Virus record (IMG/VR): IMGVR_UViG_3300045051_001003
Span: 1 to 31,071 of that record
Strand: one strand, 5' to 3'
DNA from: a virus
Length of the DNA: 31,071 nt
Below the pieces are notes generated by a model. The model saw nothing but the letters and a program-made list of their open reading frames with translations, had not been told where the DNA came from and searched no databases. A program made the translations under genes and the position numbers. Below are positions 9,210-29,582 of the stretch, piece after piece. Within the stretch, counting starts at the first letter, position 1, and every line of letters begins with the position of its first letter.

Positions 9210-10161
9210 AGATAATAAAATTTATTGTGGAGATAATGTAGAAATTTTAAAAACATTTCCTGATAATTGTATTGATTGTGTTGTTACAAGTCCACCATAT
9301 GATTCTGCTCGTACATATAAAGGATATAGCTTCAGATTTGAGAAAGTAGCTATAGAACTATATAGAGTATTAAAAGAAGGTGGAGTTGTTGTTTGGAATG
9401 TAAATGATGAAACTGTTAAAGGTAGTGAAAGTCTTACATCATTTAAACAAGCTATCTTCTTTGTTGAAGAATGTAGATTTAGATTACATGATACTATGTA
9501 TTATGAAAAAAATAGCTCATCATTTCCTGCTAAAGCAAACGGTAATAGATATACACAAACAATAGAATATGTTTTTATATTATCTAAAGGTGCTCCTAAA
9601 ACTGCTAAATTAATATGTGATAAAAAGAATAGATGGGAAGGTTGGAAAGGATTTGGAAAAACAACCATGAGAAATAAAGAAGGTGAATTGGTTGAATATG
9701 ATAAGAAACCTACTCCTGAATATTCCCCTCGTAATAACATATGGAGATATAATACTGGAAAAGGGTTTAGTTCTAAAGGAGATACAGCATCTCAGCATCC
9801 TGCTATTATGCCTATAGGATTAGCAGTAGACCATATAAGAACATGGACACAGGAAGGGGATATTGTTTTAGATCCTTTTAATGGTTCGGGTACTACAATC
9901 TGTGCTTCTAAATTTATGAACAGAAAATATATAGGAATTGATGTATCAGAAGAATATTGTAAATTAGCAGAAGAGAGATTAAAAGAAAAAATAGATATTG
10001 AAGATATTATAAGAAAGAATGCGGAAATACAAGCAGGAAGATACCCACAAGATTCTCAAAAAAAAGAAGTTAAATCTGTTACAGATATTAATGTAGAAAT
10101 AAAACAAACAGCAGAAAAACAAATTAAAGATTTGGAACAAGGTAAATTATTTGGACAATAA
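9202..10161 (+). CDS. DNA methyltransferase, N4-cytosine/N6-adenine type
   Basis: The 319-residue enzyme has the catalytic motif TSPPYD (Ser30-Pro-Pro-Tyr33) near the N-terminus and the AdoMet-binding motif DPFNGSGTT at 224-232. This order is that of the beta class. SPPY is usual for N4-cytosine enzymes but also occurs among N6-adenine ones. RKYIGIDVSEEYCKLAEERL after the FxGxG motif is the standard next strand and helix. The last about 60 residues are a charged extension beyond the core. Methylation probably protects phage DNA from host restriction or a phage nuclease. It overlaps the nuclease gene by 8 bp and the next gene by 11 bp. Confidence 0.9.
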   Translation: MIKDNKIYCGDNVEILKTFPDNCIDCVVTSPPYDSARTYKGYSFRFEKVAIELYRVLKEGGVVVWNVNDETVKGSESLTSFKQAIFFVEECRFRLHDTMYYEKNSSSFPAKANGNRYTQTIEYVFILSKGAPKTAKLICDKKNRWEGWKGFGKTTMRNKEGELVEYDKKPTPEYSPRNNIWRYNTGKGFSSKGDTASQHPAIMPIGLAVDHIRTWTQEGDIVLDPFNGSGTTICASKFMNRKYIGIDVSEEYCKLAEERLKEKIDIEDIIRKNAEIQAGRYPQDSQKKEVKSVTDINVEIKQTAEKQIKDLEQGKLFGQ

Positions 10162-11738: not shown

Positions 11739-11786
11739 CAGAATAAACTTGTAACTGCACAACAGAATAAACTTGTAAGAGTACAA
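11739..11786 (+). repeat. Two tandem 24-bp repeats with dyad symmetry, upstream of the helicase gene
   Basis: Two 24-bp units abut at 11739-11762 and 11763-11786. They share CAGAATAAACTTGTAA and end in ACAA. Each ends in an inverted repeat: TTGTA-AGAG-TACAA (11773-11786) in the second and TTGT-N6-ACAA (11749-11762) in the first. A much weaker third copy may run from 11787 into the helicase start. The units fill a 71-bp intergenic gap, the largest in the first 25 kb. Iteron-like binding sites for a replication protein or a tandem operator for the helicase gene are the two obvious readings. Confidence 0.75.
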
Positions 11787-14988: not shown

Positions 14989-15192
14989 ATGGATTTAATT
15001 AAAGTTGCAAGTAGTAATATTGATAGTATCGGTTTCGATGAAAATGGTTTGACAGTTAGATTTAAGTCTGGAAGTATGTACCAATATGGAGATGTAGATT
15101 TGGCAATGTATAATGAATTTTTAAATTCAGAGTCAAAAGGAAAATTTTTTAATACTAAAATAAAAAATAAAACTTATGTTAAGGTAGGGTAA
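14989..15192 (+). CDS. KTSC domain protein
   Basis: A 67-residue protein matching the KTSC pattern over its whole length: VASSNIDSIGFDENGLTVRF, SGSMYQYGDV, then a helix and SESKGKFFNTKIKNKTY. The domain is named after fused lysyl-tRNA synthetase C-terminal parts and is widespread in phages as a free-standing beta protein. Its biochemical role is not established. A GGAG lies eight bases before the ATG. The gene begins a cluster of small genes leading to the tubulin-like gene. Confidence 0.8.
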   Translation: MDLIKVASSNIDSIGFDENGLTVRFKSGSMYQYGDVDLAMYNEFLNSESKGKFFNTKIKNKTYVKVG

Positions 15193-15193
15193 T

Positions 15194-15601
15194 ATGGAAA
15201 TAGTAGTAGATTCATCAAAAGTCGGGGTAAGTTTAGAAAAAACAATTCAAGCAAAGATGGCAGAAAGAAGTCTTCCGGGATGCTTAGGGCATTTATTTCC
15301 TCCTATAATGTCTAAATTTATAGAAACAGAGGATACGGAATTGTTAGCAAAAACAGAATCTCTTAAAGATGATGAAAAAATAAACGTAAATATGATGGAA
15401 TTTATTGTTAGTAAAAATATTGATATAACAGAAGTATCACTAACAAAAGAAGGATTAGAAAAAATAGAAAAAGCAAAGATAGAGACAGCTACTCTTTATG
15501 TAGATAGAATAAAAAGTTGTGTTGAATGCCAATATATTGATACTTGTCATAAGATAACACAAAATTATTTACAATTAATTAAATTAAACGAGAAGGTATA
15601 A
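15194..15601 (+). CDS. Hypothetical protein with C-terminal Cys cluster
   Basis: A 135-residue protein. The N-terminal part begins with strand-like EIVVDSSKV, followed by helices. Near the C-terminus it has CVECQYIDTC and a following HK, a possible metal site (C-x2-C-x5-C-H). No family recognised. It starts one base after the KTSC gene stop and ends just before a small charged protein, so it is co-transcribed with them and the tubulin-like gene. Confidence 0.55.
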   Translation: MEIVVDSSKVGVSLEKTIQAKMAERSLPGCLGHLFPPIMSKFIETEDTELLAKTESLKDDEKINVNMMEFIVSKNIDITEVSLTKEGLEKIEKAKIETATLYVDRIKSCVECQYIDTCHKITQNYLQLIKLNEKV

Positions 15602-15603
15602 TA

Positions 15604-15855
15604 ATGAAAAAAATGAAATCTGACAAATTTAATCAATATTCAAAAAAAATGTCTCAAAAAATTGATAAGATAATAGATCCTAAAACAGTTGAAGGGATGG
15701 ATATAGAAAAAGAGTATCAATTAATACAAGAAAGAAAAAGTAAACTTTCAGCTAATATGAGAGAAGCAATTACATATCATATGAGTGTTAAAACAATTCA
15801 AAAAGAAAAAGATAAAAAAGCAGAAGAAGAAAAAAATAAAGGAGAGGAAAAATGA
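15604..15855 (+). CDS. Small charged helical protein upstream of the tubulin-like gene
   Basis: An 83-residue, very Lys/Glu-rich protein. A long predicted helix covers most of it, ending in a tail of mixed charge (KEKDKKAEEEKNKGEEK). The second ATG at 15613 is an alternative start. It overlaps the tubulin-like gene by ATGA, so their translation is coupled. No family recognised. As a small, charged, coiled protein adjacent to a filament-forming GTPase it could be an accessory factor, but only position supports that. Confidence 0.5.
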   Translation: MKKMKSDKFNQYSKKMSQKIDKIIDPKTVEGMDIEKEYQLIQERKSKLSANMREAITYHMSVKTIQKEKDKKAEEEKNKGEEK

Positions 15856-16925
15856 TACAAGAAAGTTTAAATGTAATAGGACTTGGACAGGCTGGAAGTA
15901 GAATTGCTAAATTTTTTGATAGAGCAAATGTTCCTACCATGTATGCAAACAGTGACGAAGTAGATTTTAGGGGACTTAATATACCTGAAAACAAAACCCT
16001 TCTTATTGAAGGAACTGGTACAGGTTGTTCTTATGTAAAAGGGCTTCAAATAGTGGATAAAAATTTAGATACTTTTATCAGTTATATCTCTAAAGTACTA
16101 AATAAAGATAAGCTTAATCTATTTATCTTTGGTTGTGGCGGTGGTTCAGGTTCTTCAATGTCTACAAGAGCTATTAAATATGCTATTGAGAATAAGTATA
16201 GAGTTGGTGTCCTTACAGTTCTTCCTGCTGATGTGCTTGGTATTGTTCCTAAAGGTAACGCAATTAAAACCCTTGAAGATTTAAAAGAATTTCCTATTAA
16301 TACATTTATTCTTGCTGATAATGAATATTTATCAAAGGATATAGTTTTGGGTAAAGATTGGTGGAGTGAAATTAATCAAAAAATATATGATCAGGTTGAA
16401 GCTGCATTTGAAATAACAGGTTCTAAAAAAACTTCACAGGCTGGTATAGGTTCAATAGATAAGGGAGAGTTAATGCGTATTCTTCAATATGGTAATGGAC
16501 TTATTGATATTAGAACATTTAGAATTAAAAAATACCAAATGACAGAAGAATATGTTGAGGAATTGCTCCATAAGCCTGTATTGACTGAAGGTTATAATTA
16601 TAAAGATAGTTTGGCTTATATTATTAATATTGATACTCCTACGTTTGGTAATTATTCTCAATTTGCACAGACTGTGTTTATGAAATCAAGTGGTAAATAT
16701 GGTTCTGCTATTTCTAAATTTGGTATGTTTATTGATGGTTCTCTTTCAGAAGAAATTGTTCTTACAATAATAACAGCAGGACTTAAGTTTCCTAAAATTG
16801 TTACTAAAGAAATGAAAAAGTTTAATAGAGAAGGTGTAAGGCTTAATAAGAAAAAAGATAAAGAAGATAAAACAGATTTCTCTATTGTTGATAGCAGTAT
16901 GATAGATGATGAGTTTGATATCTAA
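15852..16925 (+). CDS. Tubulin/FtsZ-family GTPase (phage tubulin, TubZ/PhuZ-like)
   Basis: The 357-residue protein shows the tubulin/FtsZ nucleotide-binding plan. The first strand and loop are NVIGLGQAGSRIAKFF (7-22). A T3-like GTGTGCS is at 54-60. The signature loop FGCGGGSGSS (93-102) corresponds to GGGTG(S/T)G. ADNEY (155-159) fits the sugar-binding segment, and NGLIDIR (215-221) lies where FtsZ has the T7 loop, with Asp219 as the candidate catalytic acid. A C-terminal domain and an acidic tail (MIDDEFDI) follow. Such phage tubulins form filaments that position or segregate phage DNA. Low similarity to bacterial FtsZ and the phage context favour a divergent phage tubulin. Strong SD, ATGA coupled to the upstream gene. 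Confidence 0.82.
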   Translation: MIQESLNVIGLGQAGSRIAKFFDRANVPTMYANSDEVDFRGLNIPENKTLLIEGTGTGCSYVKGLQIVDKNLDTFISYISKVLNKDKLNLFIFGCGGGSGSSMSTRAIKYAIENKYRVGVLTVLPADVLGIVPKGNAIKTLEDLKEFPINTFILADNEYLSKDIVLGKDWWSEINQKIYDQVEAAFEITGSKKTSQAGIGSIDKGELMRILQYGNGLIDIRTFRIKKYQMTEEYVEELLHKPVLTEGYNYKDSLAYIINIDTPTFGNYSQFAQTVFMKSSGKYGSAISKFGMFIDGSLSEEIVLTIITAGLKFPKIVTKEMKKFNREGVRLNKKKDKEDKTDFSIVDSSMIDDEFDI

Positions 16926-16928
16926 TTA

Positions 16929-17165
16929 ATGGAAAAGAAACAATCAGATAAAAATCTCACTATATATTTAGGTGAAGAGAAAGAATTATTCTGGAAGATT
17001 AGGGATGAATTAAAATCTTTATGGTATGATTCCTATGGAGAATCTCTTACTAATAATAAGATGATATTAACAGCTATGCAATTATTAAGAGATTCTCTAT
17101 CAGGTAAGGAAAACAGATTTGATAAAAAGAAGTATAAACTACAAGATAAATACTGGAGGTTGTAA
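16929..17165 (+). CDS. Possible ribbon-helix-helix protein next to the tubulin-like gene
   Basis: A 78-residue basic protein. NLTIYLGEE (9-17) could be the DNA-contacting strand, followed by two helices (KELFWKIRDELKSLWYDSYG and NNKMILTAMQLLRDSLS), the strand-helix-helix order of ribbon-helix-helix DNA-binding proteins. A basic tail follows. It begins three bases after the tubulin-like stop. Plasmid and phage filament systems pair a filament gene with a small DNA adaptor (TubR for TubZ, ParR for ParM), so an adaptor role is plausible but not shown. The first helix is longer than in a standard ribbon-helix-helix fold. Confidence 0.5.
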   Translation: MEKKQSDKNLTIYLGEEKELFWKIRDELKSLWYDSYGESLTNNKMILTAMQLLRDSLSGKENRFDKKKYKLQDKYWRL

Positions 17166-17321
17166 ATGGATTGGAAATTGCGTGGTGAACTAGGATGGTT
17201 TCAAGGTGAAGATTGGTGTTTATTTCATGTTAATATACTAAATTTTGATAATGAAGTGTTTGTTCAGATATTTAAAATAAAAATATTAAAATTTATATTT
17301 GGAATTCACATAGAAAAGTGA
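17166..17321 (+). CDS. Small hypothetical protein
   Basis: A 51-residue product starting eight bases after GGAGG (17154-17158). It is rich in Trp and Phe (DWKLRGELGWFQGEDWC... FVQIFKIKILKFIFGIHIE) and reads as a short beta-rich protein. Its stop overlaps the next start as GTGA (17318-17321), the overlap style used across this operon. No family recognised. Support comes from the strong ribosome binding site and the exact overlaps. Confidence 0.5.
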   Translation: MDWKLRGELGWFQGEDWCLFHVNILNFDNEVFVQIFKIKILKFIFGIHIEK

Positions 17322-18757
17322 TTATATCAGATAAAATTTATATAAATAAATCAGAGTTAGGAGAGCATCTCCAAGGACTTTGTGATTTATTTATTTATAA
17401 TAATCCGGAGTATTATCAAAAAAAGAAGCTAAAATTATCAGTTGCTAATGTATTTGATAAGTTATACCATTACCAATTTGATGGTATAACTTTGTCCCTA
17501 CCTAGAGGAAGTCTTGATAAAGTAAAACAATACTATAAAGAACATAATCTTTTATTTAGAGCTGCAGATAAAAGGATATCTTATAAACCAATTAATATAA
17601 AACTCCATGATACTATAATAGAACCTCAACAAAGACAAATAATGGATTTACTTATTAATAATGGTGGTGGTTGTGTTGAAATGGCAATGGGCGGTGGCAA
17701 ATCTATTGCTATTCTTGGATTAATATCAGAAATAAAACAACCTACTATCATACTTCTTCATGAACATAGATTATTAACTCAATGGAAAGAAGAAATTGAA
17801 AAGAGATTAAAAGGTAAATTTAAATTAGGACAATTACACGGAGATATTAAAGAAGAGGGAGATATTACTCTTGGGTTAATACAAACAGTTCATAGAATGT
17901 TTGATGAAGATGTACATTGTCTTGATAAGTATGGTATGATTATTGTTGATGAAATGCATAGAGTTAATTCTGATACTTATATAAAAGTTATTAATAATGT
18001 TCCTGCTAAATATAGGATAGGAGTAACAGGAACAATAGATAGAAAAGATGGTAAAGAAATCTTATCCTTCGATATGATAGGAAAACCTCTCATAAAAATT
18101 GGTGCTCATGATATAAAACATCGTATTACAAATTTTAGATTTGAAATTATTAACACAAATATACCTATAGAGATACCTTATACAGAAAGATGGACAGGAC
18201 AAAGAAGAGAACCTGTTATTGATTTTACAAAAACTCTTACAGTACTTACACAAAACGATGAAAGAAACAGTATTATAATAAGTAAAGTTATTGATGCTAT
18301 AAAAGAAGGGCATATCTGTTTAATACTTTCTGATAGAGTAGAACATAACAAAAATATGCATAAAATGTTGACAGAAATGGGAATTATGTGTATATTACTT
18401 ATTGGAGAGACTAGAAAAAAAGTTAAGTGGGATGAAATAAGAAATGATACTTCTGTACAATGTATTGTTGCAAATACAAGTATAGCAAGTGAAGGATTAG
18501 ATTTACCCAGACTTTCAGCATTATTTTTGACATGTCCATCCTCTAATTATCCTAAATTATCTCAAAGAGTAGGAAGAATTAGAAGACATGTAGATGGCAA
18601 ACAATTGCCAGTTCTATATGATTTTGTCGATAATCTTGCTTATAGCAGTACGGTAAATGGCAAATCCTATCTTCTTAAGCACATCGCAAGGAAAAGAATT
18701 AAGTTATATCAAAAGTTAATTGATGATTATAACAATGGAAAAACAGAAACTCTGTAG
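17318..18757 (+). CDS. Superfamily 2 DNA helicase, UvsW/XPB-like (GTG start)
   Basis: The 479-residue protein has an N-terminal non-helicase region (about 1-95), then the SF2 core: PQQRQIMDLLIN (Q-like motif, 103-114), motif I AMGGGKS (123-129), motif II VDEMHR (210-215), motif III GVTGT (235-239), a motif V-like IASEGLDLP (389-397) and motif VI QRVGRIRR (416-423). This is the plan of T4 UvsW and XPB-type helicases, which remodel branched DNA and R-loops in recombination-dependent replication. It matches the RecA-like protein and resolvase upstream. GTG starts in a GTGA overlap. Confidence 0.88.
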   Translation: MIISDKIYINKSELGEHLQGLCDLFIYNNPEYYQKKKLKLSVANVFDKLYHYQFDGITLSLPRGSLDKVKQYYKEHNLLFRAADKRISYKPINIKLHDTIIEPQQRQIMDLLINNGGGCVEMAMGGGKSIAILGLISEIKQPTIILLHEHRLLTQWKEEIEKRLKGKFKLGQLHGDIKEEGDITLGLIQTVHRMFDEDVHCLDKYGMIIVDEMHRVNSDTYIKVINNVPAKYRIGVTGTIDRKDGKEILSFDMIGKPLIKIGAHDIKHRITNFRFEIINTNIPIEIPYTERWTGQRREPVIDFTKTLTVLTQNDERNSIIISKVIDAIKEGHICLILSDRVEHNKNMHKMLTEMGIMCILLIGETRKKVKWDEIRNDTSVQCIVANTSIASEGLDLPRLSALFLTCPSSNYPKLSQRVGRIRRHVDGKQLPVLYDFVDNLAYSSTVNGKSYLLKHIARKRIKLYQKLIDDYNNGKTETL

Positions 18758-18784: not shown

Positions 18785-19495
18785 ATGGAGAAATTTAAAG
18801 TCGGGTTAGAGTTAAGTAAAAACTATAATAAAAGGACAGATGAAGATACACAATTATTAAATGAAATTATATTATCAGCAATAGAACTAATACATACAGA
18901 AGATAAGCATAAAGATATTGCAATTAATTTTTTAGTTACTATTTTTGAACCATTAATTAAAAAAAGTGCTTCAAAAATATATAGTAAATTTAAACCTACT
19001 ATTGAATATGACGATATATTACAGGAGTGTTATTTATTATTTCTAAAATTAGTAAATAAGTATAATCCTGATGAAGCTCCATTTTCATGGTATGTAAACT
19101 ACTTTCTTCCTCAGTCGTTATATGTTTGGGGGAGAGCAACTAAAAAAAGTCAGCATGTACAAATAGATTTTAATGGAGATATACCATATGATCATGCTTT
19201 TTCTAACTATAATAGAGATTCAATGGAAGAGTTCGATTTTTATATCTTAGAAAAAGAATATATTAAATTTATGGAAACAAGATCTATAAAAAAATCAAGA
19301 AGTACAACATCTAAAATAGTATGTGAAAAATTCTTTTTAGGTGGGGTTAATTGTACAGATATATCACATGAAATAGGAATTAGTTATCAGGCAGTATATG
19401 AAATTATTAACAGGATTAAAGATGAATTTAAAGTATTTCTTCAGGAGAGTAAGTATTCTCCCTTTATATTAACATCTACAGGATATGTATATTGA
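18785..19495 (+). CDS. Sigma-70 family RNA polymerase sigma factor
   Basis: The 236-residue protein has a region 2-like segment, FEPLIKKSASKIYSKF... YDDILQECYLLFLKLVNKY... SWYVNYFLPQSLYVWGRA (54-118), containing the DDILQEC signature that binds core polymerase. A region 4-like helix-turn-helix covers about 184-212 (GGVNCTDISHEIGISYQAVYEIINRI) for -35 recognition. Region 1.1 is absent and region 3 seems reduced. Phage sigma factors of this type redirect host RNA polymerase to middle or late genes. No matching promoter set is visible on the plus strand here, so its targets are probably outside the window. The stop overlaps the next TTG start. Confidence 0.8.
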   Translation: MEKFKVGLELSKNYNKRTDEDTQLLNEIILSAIELIHTEDKHKDIAINFLVTIFEPLIKKSASKIYSKFKPTIEYDDILQECYLLFLKLVNKYNPDEAPFSWYVNYFLPQSLYVWGRATKKSQHVQIDFNGDIPYDHAFSNYNRDSMEEFDFYILEKEYIKFMETRSIKKSRSTTSKIVCEKFFLGGVNCTDISHEIGISYQAVYEIINRIKDEFKVFLQESKYSPFILTSTGYVY

Positions 19496-19674
19496 AAGTT
19501 TATAAATTACAAATAAATATACCATCTGACTTAAGATTTAAGTTTAAAAACAAATGTGATTATTATGAATTAAATCAATCTAATGTTGTCAATTTTCTTG
19601 TTAATAAATTTAATGAAGGAATGTTTGATGAAGAATTAGGAATATCTAAAGTGGAGGAAATAAGTGGAAGTTAA
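19492..19674 (+). CDS. Ribbon-helix-helix DNA-binding protein (TTG start)
   Basis: A 60-residue protein whose first 40 residues fit the ribbon-helix-helix fold well: strand KLQINIPSDL, helix RFKFKNKCDYYEL, turn NQSN, helix VVNFLVNKFNEG. Such proteins bind operators as dimers through the paired strands. The TTG start overlaps the sigma gene stop as TTGA. The end overlaps the rmlC-like gene by 11 bp. It may be a regulator acting with the sigma factor. Candidate operators in the window are the dyads at 11739-11786 and the repeats at 25387-25435, but no link is shown. Confidence 0.65.
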   Translation: MKVYKLQINIPSDLRFKFKNKCDYYELNQSNVVNFLVNKFNEGMFDEELGISKVEEISGS

Positions 19675-20209
19675 ACATATTCGTGGTACAATGGTAATGG
19701 ATCAACCTATATATAAAGATGAAAGGGGATGGTTTAGGGAATTATATAAACAATCTAATTTTTTCGCTAATGGATTTAAACAAGATAATCTTTCTTTTTC
19801 TAAAAAAGGAGTAATGAGAGGATTACATTACCAAATAGAACCGAATGCACAAGCAAAGTATATTACTGTAATATCAGGAAAAATAACAGATATTATTGTC
19901 GATATTAGAAAAGATTCACCTACTTTTGGGCAATATATGAAAGTAGAATTATCTGGAGAAAATGGAAGAGTAGTTTTTATGCCTGAAGGATGTGCTCATG
20001 GATTTATAGCATTAGAAGATACTTATTTTTTATATAAATGTTCTAATGAATATAATAAAAAAGCTGAAAGATGTATATTTTGTTATGATGATTTTTTAGA
20101 TATTGATTGGGGTAAAGATATTCCTATTGTACCTATGTTATCAGAAAAAGACAAACAAGGTAAAAAATTTAAGGAATTATTTTTAATAAATGAAGGAGAA
20201 ATTAAATGA
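19664..20209 (+). CDS. rmlC: dTDP-4-dehydrorhamnose 3,5-epimerase-like (RmlC family), GTG start
   Basis: The 181-residue protein is full length for RmlC. It has DERGWFRELY (19-28), RGLHYQ (52-57, with His55 as the candidate catalytic base), the Lys in QAKYITVISG (Lys65), VDIRKDSPTFGQ (79-90) and MPEGCAHGF (106-114). This cupin enzyme epimerises dTDP-4-keto-6-deoxy-glucose at C3 and C5. It starts with GTG after GGAGG, inside the preceding small gene, and overlaps rmlB by 4 bp. Phage copies usually serve surface or DNA glycosylation. RmlA and RmlD are not in the window, so host enzymes or another end product must be assumed. Confidence 0.9.
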   Translation: MEVKHIRGTMVMDQPIYKDERGWFRELYKQSNFFANGFKQDNLSFSKKGVMRGLHYQIEPNAQAKYITVISGKITDIIVDIRKDSPTFGQYMKVELSGENGRVVFMPEGCAHGFIALEDTYFLYKCSNEYNKKAERCIFCYDDFLDIDWGKDIPIVPMLSEKDKQGKKFKELFLINEGEIK

Positions 20210-21192
20210 ATAATGTGTTAATTACAGGTGGATGTGGATTTATTGGAACAAATTTTATAAAATATCTTTTTGACATACCTGCATTTAAAGGTAAAGTAAT
20301 CAATATAGATAAATTAACATATGCAGCTCAACCGGGAAATTTAAAAGATATAGATTATATTTTTGGAAGTAAAGATTATATTTTTATACAAGGTGATATT
20401 AATGACAGAGACTTAATAGAACATACTTTGTATACCTATGAGATAGATGTAGTAGTTAACTTTGCTGCTGAATCTTCTGTAGATAAATCTTTACTTGGTG
20501 CAGAAGAATTTTTAAGGACTAATATTAATGGTGTTTATAATTTAATGGAATCCTGTAAAGCTATTTGGGGAGAAAAATGTGAAAATAAACTTTTTATACA
20601 AATAGGAACAGATGAAGTATGGGTTCAGGAAAATTTACAATCAATAGCAAATGAAAATTCACCTTATAATCCTCATAATATATATGCTGCAACAAAAGCA
20701 TCTGCTGACCATATCGCTATGTCATATTTTCATACATATGGTATACCTGTTATTAATACTCATTTTTCTAATAATTATGGTCCATACCAACATGGTGAAA
20801 AATTTATTCCTACTATTATAAATAATATAATTAATAAAAGAGAAATTCCTGTTTATGGTAATGGTACTAATAGAAGACAGTGGGTATATGTTGAAGATGT
20901 TTGTGAAGCTTTGTGGTTAGTAATATTAAAAGGTAAAGCTGGAGAACTATATTGCATAGGTGGAGCAGATGAACTAGACAATATTCATGTGGTACATTCT
21001 ATTTGTGATATATATGATGAAGTTTATGGTGAACAAATACATAGTATAAGATTTGTTGAAGATAGAAAAGGACATGATTTTAGGTATTGTATAGATTATA
21101 CTAAATCAATGGAAGAATTGGGATGGACTCCTAACACAAAATTAAAAGATGGTTTAATAAAAACAATTAAATACTATAAAAATGATAAATAA
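20206..21192 (+). CDS. rmlB: dTDP-glucose 4,6-dehydratase-like (RmlB family)
   Basis: The 328-residue protein is an extended short-chain dehydrogenase. It has NAD-binding GGCGFIG (8-14), DKLTYAAQPGNL (35-46), the catalytic Thr135-Asp136-Glu137 characteristic of RmlB, and Tyr160-x3-Lys164 (YAATK). NNYGPYQHGEKFIP follows, then the substrate-binding C-terminus with GNGTNRRQWVYVEDV. The enzyme converts dTDP-glucose to dTDP-4-keto-6-deoxy-glucose, the substrate of the RmlC-type protein encoded just upstream. It overlaps a DNA methyltransferase gene by 11 bp, an unusual neighbour for sugar genes. Confidence 0.92.
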   Translation: MNNVLITGGCGFIGTNFIKYLFDIPAFKGKVINIDKLTYAAQPGNLKDIDYIFGSKDYIFIQGDINDRDLIEHTLYTYEIDVVVNFAAESSVDKSLLGAEEFLRTNINGVYNLMESCKAIWGEKCENKLFIQIGTDEVWVQENLQSIANENSPYNPHNIYAATKASADHIAMSYFHTYGIPVINTHFSNNYGPYQHGEKFIPTIINNIINKREIPVYGNGTNRRQWVYVEDVCEALWLVILKGKAGELYCIGGADELDNIHVVHSICDIYDEVYGEQIHSIRFVEDRKGHDFRYCIDYTKSMEELGWTPNTKLKDGLIKTIKYYKNDK

Positions 21193-29501: not shown

Positions 29502-29582
29502 TTAAATACTGCATCCTACTATTAAAAATATACCGGCTACTATTAAAAATATACCAAAAACAATCCCCAATACTTTTTTCAT
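29502..29582 (-). CDS. Hydrophobic 26-residue microprotein with lipobox-like end
   Basis: The product starts MKKVLGIVFGIFLIV and is nearly all hydrophobic. It contains GIFLIV twice, seven residues apart, and ends in IVGCSI. A Lys-Lys start, one membrane helix and I-V-G-C (a lipobox) fit a tiny lipoprotein, or simply a single-helix membrane peptide. GGAG lies eight bases before the ATG, the TAA touches the next gene's ATG, and the previous gene stops one base before its start. Function unknown. Small lysis peptides of the colicin-release type have a similar build, but this is only a comparison. Confidence 0.6.
   Translation of the reverse strand: MKKVLGIVFGIFLIVAGIFLIVGCSI
29516..29555 (+). 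repeat. In-frame tandem repeat inside the hydrophobic microprotein gene
   Basis: CTACTATTAAAAATATACC occurs at 29516-29534 and again at 29537-29555, a period of 21 bp, that is seven codons. It encodes the GIFLIV(A/G) duplication. The copies are identical at base level, which suggests a recent slippage event or selection for the repeat itself. Confidence 0.85.

Follow-up and report, generated by a model that had tools for sequence, protein, structure and literature searches.

Phage tubulins whose roles have been worked out fall into two groups. One is PhuZ of the phiKZ-like jumbo phages, which operates together with a phage nucleus and has an acidic C-terminal tail. The other is TubZ, which serves a plasmid-like partition with the help of a winged-helix adaptor. 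The TubZRC system of Bacillus plasmids and phage c-st includes, besides TubZ itself, the winged-helix protein TubR, an iterated centromere (tubC) and TubY, and the tail of TubZ carries partner-binding sites (PMC5322520). PhuZ centres phage DNA (PMC7950403). A filament with a small co-encoded adaptor, the logic proposed here, is also found in AlpC/AlpA of prophage CGP3 and in ParM/ParR (PMC4446434, PMC5016525). AlpC/AlpA, a phage filament with a co-transcribed DNA adaptor, is needed for replication (PMC4446434). In archaea, ftsZ2 is co-transcribed with the gene of CdrS, a small ribbon-helix-helix (RHH) transcription factor that acts as a regulator (PMC7439475).

The tubulin described here, together with those of four related phages, fits neither group: the fold is TubZ/CetZ-like, neither TubR nor a nucleus protein was detected, and the gene has a fixed place in a replication block. 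Two small uncharacterised proteins, of 135 and 78 residues, are kept beside it. Together with a helicase, they make up a testable four-gene set (135-residue protein, tubulin, 78-residue protein and helicase) for how nucleus-less phages might use a cytoskeleton for replication.

Identification of the tubulin homologue

The window, that is, the whole 31,071-base virus record analysed (IMG/VR IMGVR_UViG_3300045051_001003), carries a replication block on its plus strand, with genes for a clamp, a UvsX-like recombinase, a helicase loader, DnaB, a primase, a UvsW-like helicase and a sigma factor. A preliminary description, made from the sequence alone, had assigned a 357-residue protein to tubulin and its gene to a phage replication operon, and the genes around it bear out that setting. 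The reported arrangement was also confirmed: the gene for a charged 83-residue protein (15604..15855, plus strand) overlaps the start of the 357-residue gene (15852..16925, plus strand) by ATGA and, after a gap of three bases, the gene for a 78-residue protein follows (16929..17165, plus strand). Searches for Rfam RNAs and tRNAs in the window retrieved none.

The 357-residue protein is a real GTPase of the tubulin/FtsZ superfamily, as had been proposed. It matches the Pfam profile PF00091 (Tubulin) with an E value of 1.4e-10 (42.2 bits, cut-off 33), and a single-sequence search retrieved CetZ (3zid, 3.5e-5). The profile of the clade formed with four phage relatives aligned best with Bacillus cereus TubZ (4ei7, 2.5e-15), hardly ahead of CetZ (3zid, 4.6e-15), and then with FtsZ (4.5e-12). 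The AlphaFold2 model, for which the input alignment included distant relatives, displays a full tubulin fold (pLDDT 75.9, pTM 0.79), with helix 170-190 sitting between the two domains, the position of the long helix H7. Foldseek returned 1088 PDB matches at E ≤ 0.001, headed by TubZ, CetZ and FtsZ. The best solved match was again B. cereus TubZ (4ei7; E 5e-19, TM 0.74, 16% identity), followed by Haloferax CetZ2 (4b45, TM 0.71) and FtsZ, and the best viral model was a protein named FtsZ from an uncultured phage (TM 0.84).

The nucleotide loops are recognizable as T1 (VIGLGQAGSRI), T2 (ANSDEVD), T3 (GTGTG), T4 (GCGGGSGSS) and T6 (LADN), and loops T1-T6 are kept across the five phages. Thus, two of the three motifs originally read as nucleotide loops, GLGQAGSRI and GCGGGSGSS, correspond to T1 and T4. 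The third, NGLIDIR, is not such a loop: in the AlphaFold2 model it leads into strand 217-226, past helix 204-211 (H8), and in the clade this region forms a signature, QYG[NK]GL.D[IV]R. The T7 synergy loop is GSIDKGE (200-206), whose D203 and E206 are invariant in the clade; across the wider tubulin set, D203 does not vary and residue 206 is acidic. Because T1-T6 and D203/E206 are kept in the window and in four relatives whose tubulins are 40-43% identical to it, the clade appears, on sequence grounds, to have a working GTPase under selection. All five proteins end in acidic C-terminal tails, IDDEFDI in the window and IDDDFDI, IDDDFDL, LEEDFQL and LDEDF in the others.

Distribution and phylogeny

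A scan for the DnaB helicase of the window retrieved its four close relatives, L069 (121 kb), L070 (28 kb), L072 (218 kb) and L073 (77 kb), and the final viral scan found no more members of the clade. Other searches were not productive: tblastn of the tubulin against 50,697 phage records and an initial viral scan using the 357-residue protein alone retrieved nothing, and a DNA pattern for the T4 loop gave chance matches only. More distant tubulins were found through a DNA pattern for GLGQAGSRI and a profile scan, namely a jumbo-phage group (L041-L044, 134-340 kb), L036 and proteins of plasmids or conjugative elements (L045-L048); an Alicyclobacillus plasmid (L040) was found in a separate search. 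A genome scan detected further relatives in Myxococcota, Dehalococcoidia and archaeal genomes.

In a maximum-likelihood tree, which left out TubZ itself, the five phage tubulins formed one clade (99/100) on a long stem of 1.8 changes per site. The clade was not joined to L041-L044, to the plasmid proteins or to phiKZ PhuZ, and its deep placement is unsettled; the comparison with TubZ relied on PDB entries. Among the relatives compared, TubZ itself excluded, the window tubulin and its four relatives therefore constitute an isolated, deep-branching clade.

The tubulins of L041-L044 and gp138 of Bacillus phage G are of the GLGQAG type, like that of the window, and in L041-L043 a UvsW-type helicase follows the tubulin, as it does here. 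The L041-L044 proteins differ in having about 90 extra N-terminal residues. The distant phages and plasmids with a tubulin that were tested, L041-L044 among them, yielded no member of either the 78-residue or the 135-residue family. Phage G gp138 matches both the window clade and L041-L044, and differs in being preceded by the winged-helix-like gp137. Both genes lie in L113 (3686-5113), where the product of gp138, a tubulin homologue, is given as 'xxxxx' with the note putative FtsZ-like; gp137 and gp138 may be a TubR-TubZ-like pair of phage G.

In L045-L048 and L040, a winged-helix-like gene lies immediately before each GLGQAG-type tubulin, and these are divergent TubRZ-like pairs. Conjugation-type genes lie downstream of the tubulin in L045-L048, and the DNA of L047 is also present in Paenibacillus dendrobii (L062). 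A separate family of proteins of about 280 residues occurs in viral contigs (L018, L019, L022, L023, L028, L029, L031, L033, L037 and L039). Its members have a GLGQAGCSIA-like start, DN and MINVF-like motifs and no GGGTGTG loop. The L019 member had no Pfam or PHROG match, and the family is possibly made up of degenerate tubulin relatives.

The conserved gene block

In all four close relatives, the tubulin gene lies inside the replication block, in the order primase, (KTSC), (small RHH gene), 135-residue protein, tubulin, 78-residue protein, UvsW-type helicase and sigma factor. The helicase (17318..18757, plus strand, in the window; PHROG 16, 1.7e-51; Pfam ResIII) is downstream of the tubulin in the four relatives and also in several distant jumbo phages. 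The KTSC-domain gene (14989..15192, plus strand; 67 residues; PF13619, 1.7e-19) is kept in the block in three of the four. Intein-like insertions split helicase, DnaB, primase or terminase genes in L069, L070, L072, L073, L004 and L071; the copies of these genes in the window are uninterrupted.

The gene for the 135-residue protein (15194..15601, plus strand) is directly upstream of the tubulin gene in the four relatives, with 26-32% identity between the proteins; in the window, the 83-residue gene intervenes. Four cysteines, C30, C109, C112 and C118 (Cx2Cx5C), are invariant in the five phages, and this pattern leads us to suspect that the protein binds metal. No database match was found for the 135-residue protein. 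We also considered a resemblance to the iron-sulphur domain of the primase large subunit, for which the databases gave no support. The 83-residue protein had been suggested as a third member of the system, which our results do not support: it is lineage-specific, with no homologue detectable in the records of the four relatives.

L069 and L073 each carry a clear RHH gene, scoring above cut-off for Pfam RHH_1, two genes upstream of the tubulin. The one in L072 is weaker, and none was found in the window or L070. Within the window, a 60-residue protein encoded downstream of the sigma factor (19492..19674, plus strand; family A7) aligned with a 32-sequence RHH alignment in hhalign with an E value of 2e-4, a score reached by none of 200 column-shuffles. 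It has no Pfam match, and from the profile comparison it would be a better RHH candidate than the 78-residue protein.

The 78-residue protein

Homologues of the 78-residue protein are encoded in all four relatives, with identities of 46, 35, 31 and 28% and E values from 5e-12 to 1.4e-6, so that the gene is present in five out of five phages of the clade. A viral scan with the protein retrieved a sole locus, L068, which was spurious. The expected co-conservation with the tubulin gene does hold in the five phages, but it is not specific, as the whole block from the primase through the 135-residue protein, tubulin, 78-residue protein and helicase to the sigma factor is kept. Since the block is conserved as a whole, the co-occurrence is weak evidence of an interaction between the two proteins.

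The gene is tied to the helicase as tightly as to the tubulin. This arrangement bears on an alternative, which we consider somewhat unlikely, that the 78-residue protein serves the UvsW-type helicase, as an accessory factor or as a regulator of branch migration or replication restart, and is found near the tubulin through conservation of the block. In its favour, L069, L070, L072 and L073 all have an overlap of 4-56 bases between the 78-residue gene and the start of the helicase gene, and the L072 copy keeps this contact even though two extra ORFs part it from the tubulin. Against it, four of the five phages have the gene immediately after the tubulin, with 0-13 bases between them, and in more distant jumbo phages the tubulin adjoins the helicase without any 78-residue gene. 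Moreover, in the window a 51-residue ORF (17166..17321, plus strand) lies between the 78-residue gene and the helicase. This ORF has no family match and may not be a real gene.

The preliminary description took the protein for a basic one that could be RHH. With a pI of 9.3, the window copy is indeed basic, and the protein is basic in three of the five phages in total, but near-neutral in two relatives. The alignment contains the invariant residues W32, Y33, G37, L40, K74, Y75 and R77, with the family motif WY.KYGE.L. A single-sequence AlphaFold2 model (pLDDT 68) has helices at 16-34 and 40-58. The strand is absent from this monomer model; the N-terminus of most members, however, follows a [QN][IL]Y[VIL]-like pattern known from RHH ribbons, and a strand-helix-helix pattern is plausible. 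The family was compared with the same RHH alignment by hhalign, giving an E value of 0.066, and 13 of 200 column-shuffles scored as high; a trio of phage RHH proteins, used as a positive control, reached 2.9e-9. None of the five members matched a Pfam RHH family, the RHH_1 search of the window found nothing, and Foldseek with the 78-residue model gave no match. A similarity of the family to a GTF2I repeat (2dn5, E 0.0043) is probably due to chance, as it concerns one eukaryotic domain and is weaker with single members. The pattern is compatible with a possible RHH fold, which is unproven because Pfam, RHH_1 and Foldseek gave no match and hhalign did no better than with shuffles. The mixing of two known types of system, proposed for a tubulin with an RHH partner, is likewise undemonstrated and would not be entirely novel, archaeal CdrS-FtsZ2 being a precedent.

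CdrS resembles the present case as a small protein whose gene shares an operon with that of a tubulin homologue, and differs in being an RHH transcription factor where the RHH fold of the 78-residue protein is putative. The precedent nevertheless raises another alternative, in which the 78-residue protein would be a DNA-binding regulator of operon transcription, as CdrS is for archaeal ftsZ2, and not an adaptor. Its small size, its basic character in three of the five phages and the strand-helix-helix pattern are compatible with such a role, as are the RHH genes that L069, L073 and, less clearly, L072 carry upstream of the tubulin. We find this role improbable, in that the RHH fold lacks statistical support and there is no convincing excess of operators or promoters near the 78-residue gene.

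Comparison with known systems and proposed role

By fold and by clade profile, TubZ is the best match to the window tubulin, and the flexible C-terminal tail and the mobile-element host are shared. The identity in the structural match is, however, 16%, and the window tubulin is encoded in a lytic-type replication block, unlike TubZRC. TubR, tubC and TubY have no counterpart here: no winged-helix match was found among the neighbours of the window tubulin, no iteron-type binding site was found close to the tubulin and 78-residue genes, and no multi-copy repeat family was found near these genes in the window or its relatives. The system is not TubZRC by membership, because searches for both TubR and an iterated centromere were negative. 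The same searches in the window and relatives failed to find the repeat-type site that the small protein had been expected to bind. AlpC/AlpA and ParM/ParR are likewise distinguished by their iterated sites (alpS and parC), and their filaments are actin-like. Archaeal CetZ, the second-best profile match, has a similar fold, whereas the window tubulin is phage-encoded, with conserved neighbours and a tail motif of its own; the likeness does not imply a role in cell shape.

We propose, with moderate confidence, that the phage tubulin positions or organises replicating phage DNA. The phage would make its own GTP-dependent, tubulin-type filament of TubZ/CetZ-like fold together with its replication proteins, and this filament, presumably polymerised from the 357-residue protein, would position or organise the DNA as it replicates in the cell. 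The acidic tail kept in the clade is probably, like the TubZ tail, a docking site for a partner. The 78-residue protein is the leading candidate for this partner and may link the filament to DNA, although we put forward its role as a filament-DNA adaptor only tentatively. The complete combination, which would be a DNA-positioning system of a new kind with a TubZ/CetZ-type filament, a non-winged-helix 78-residue adaptor, perhaps the 135-residue protein, and a replication and recombination block, in a lineage of large phages with no nucleus, is unlikely to be right in every part.

PhuZ is also a phage-encoded tubulin, and the window tubulin could instead form a spindle of the PhuZ type, centring a proteinaceous phage nucleus and moving capsids with no need for a DNA adaptor. 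The phages look lytic and large, with records of up to 218 kb, and the best PHROG match is 'tubulin PhuZ', albeit a weak one (0.0025 for the window protein, 1.1e-5 for the best relative). Yet the window tubulin resembles TubZ/CetZ more closely in both profile and fold, PhuZ models being clearly weaker in Foldseek (TM about 0.5-0.6 to the 357-residue model), and the neighbouring genes are different. A search with the phiKZ nucleus shell protein ChmA, run without a positive control on partial records, found no counterpart in the window or in its four relatives. With a PHROG value of 0.0025 and a position apart from phiKZ PhuZ in the tree, where placement is unsure, the window tubulin does not belong to the PhuZ family by sequence, and we regard a PhuZ-type spindle as a poor candidate.

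Inhibition of host division is common among phages, and the presence of an FtsZ-superfamily protein within a lytic-type gene set would also be compatible with an action on the host, in which the tubulin co-assembles with or blocks host FtsZ and stops division during infection. The intact GTP loops, the T7 acidic residues and the conserved tail of its own suggest a self-standing polymer instead, and the profile is no closer to bacterial FtsZ than to TubZ/CetZ; such an action is very unlikely.

Repeats and other features of the window

A 24-bp tandem repeat (11739-11786) fills the gap before the DnaB gene with two full copies, and a third site resembling it lies at 9276-9292 on the minus strand. 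It is a possible origin element. As a centromere it was rejected, having two full copies only and no counterpart before DnaB in the relatives. A 21-bp direct repeat, CTACTATTAAAAATATACCGG, is present in two near-complete copies at 29516-29555, either between minus-strand genes or where one of them starts.

RmlC- and RmlB-like nucleotide-sugar genes (19664-21192) are encoded close to the tubulin block, and an NAD-epimerase-like gene adjoins the tubulin in the jumbo phages L042-L044 as well. At 2760-2945, the window encodes a ferredoxin-like protein with two CxxCxxC clusters, adjoining the gene for an MBL-fold-like hydrolase; the ferredoxin-like gene suggests an anaerobic host.
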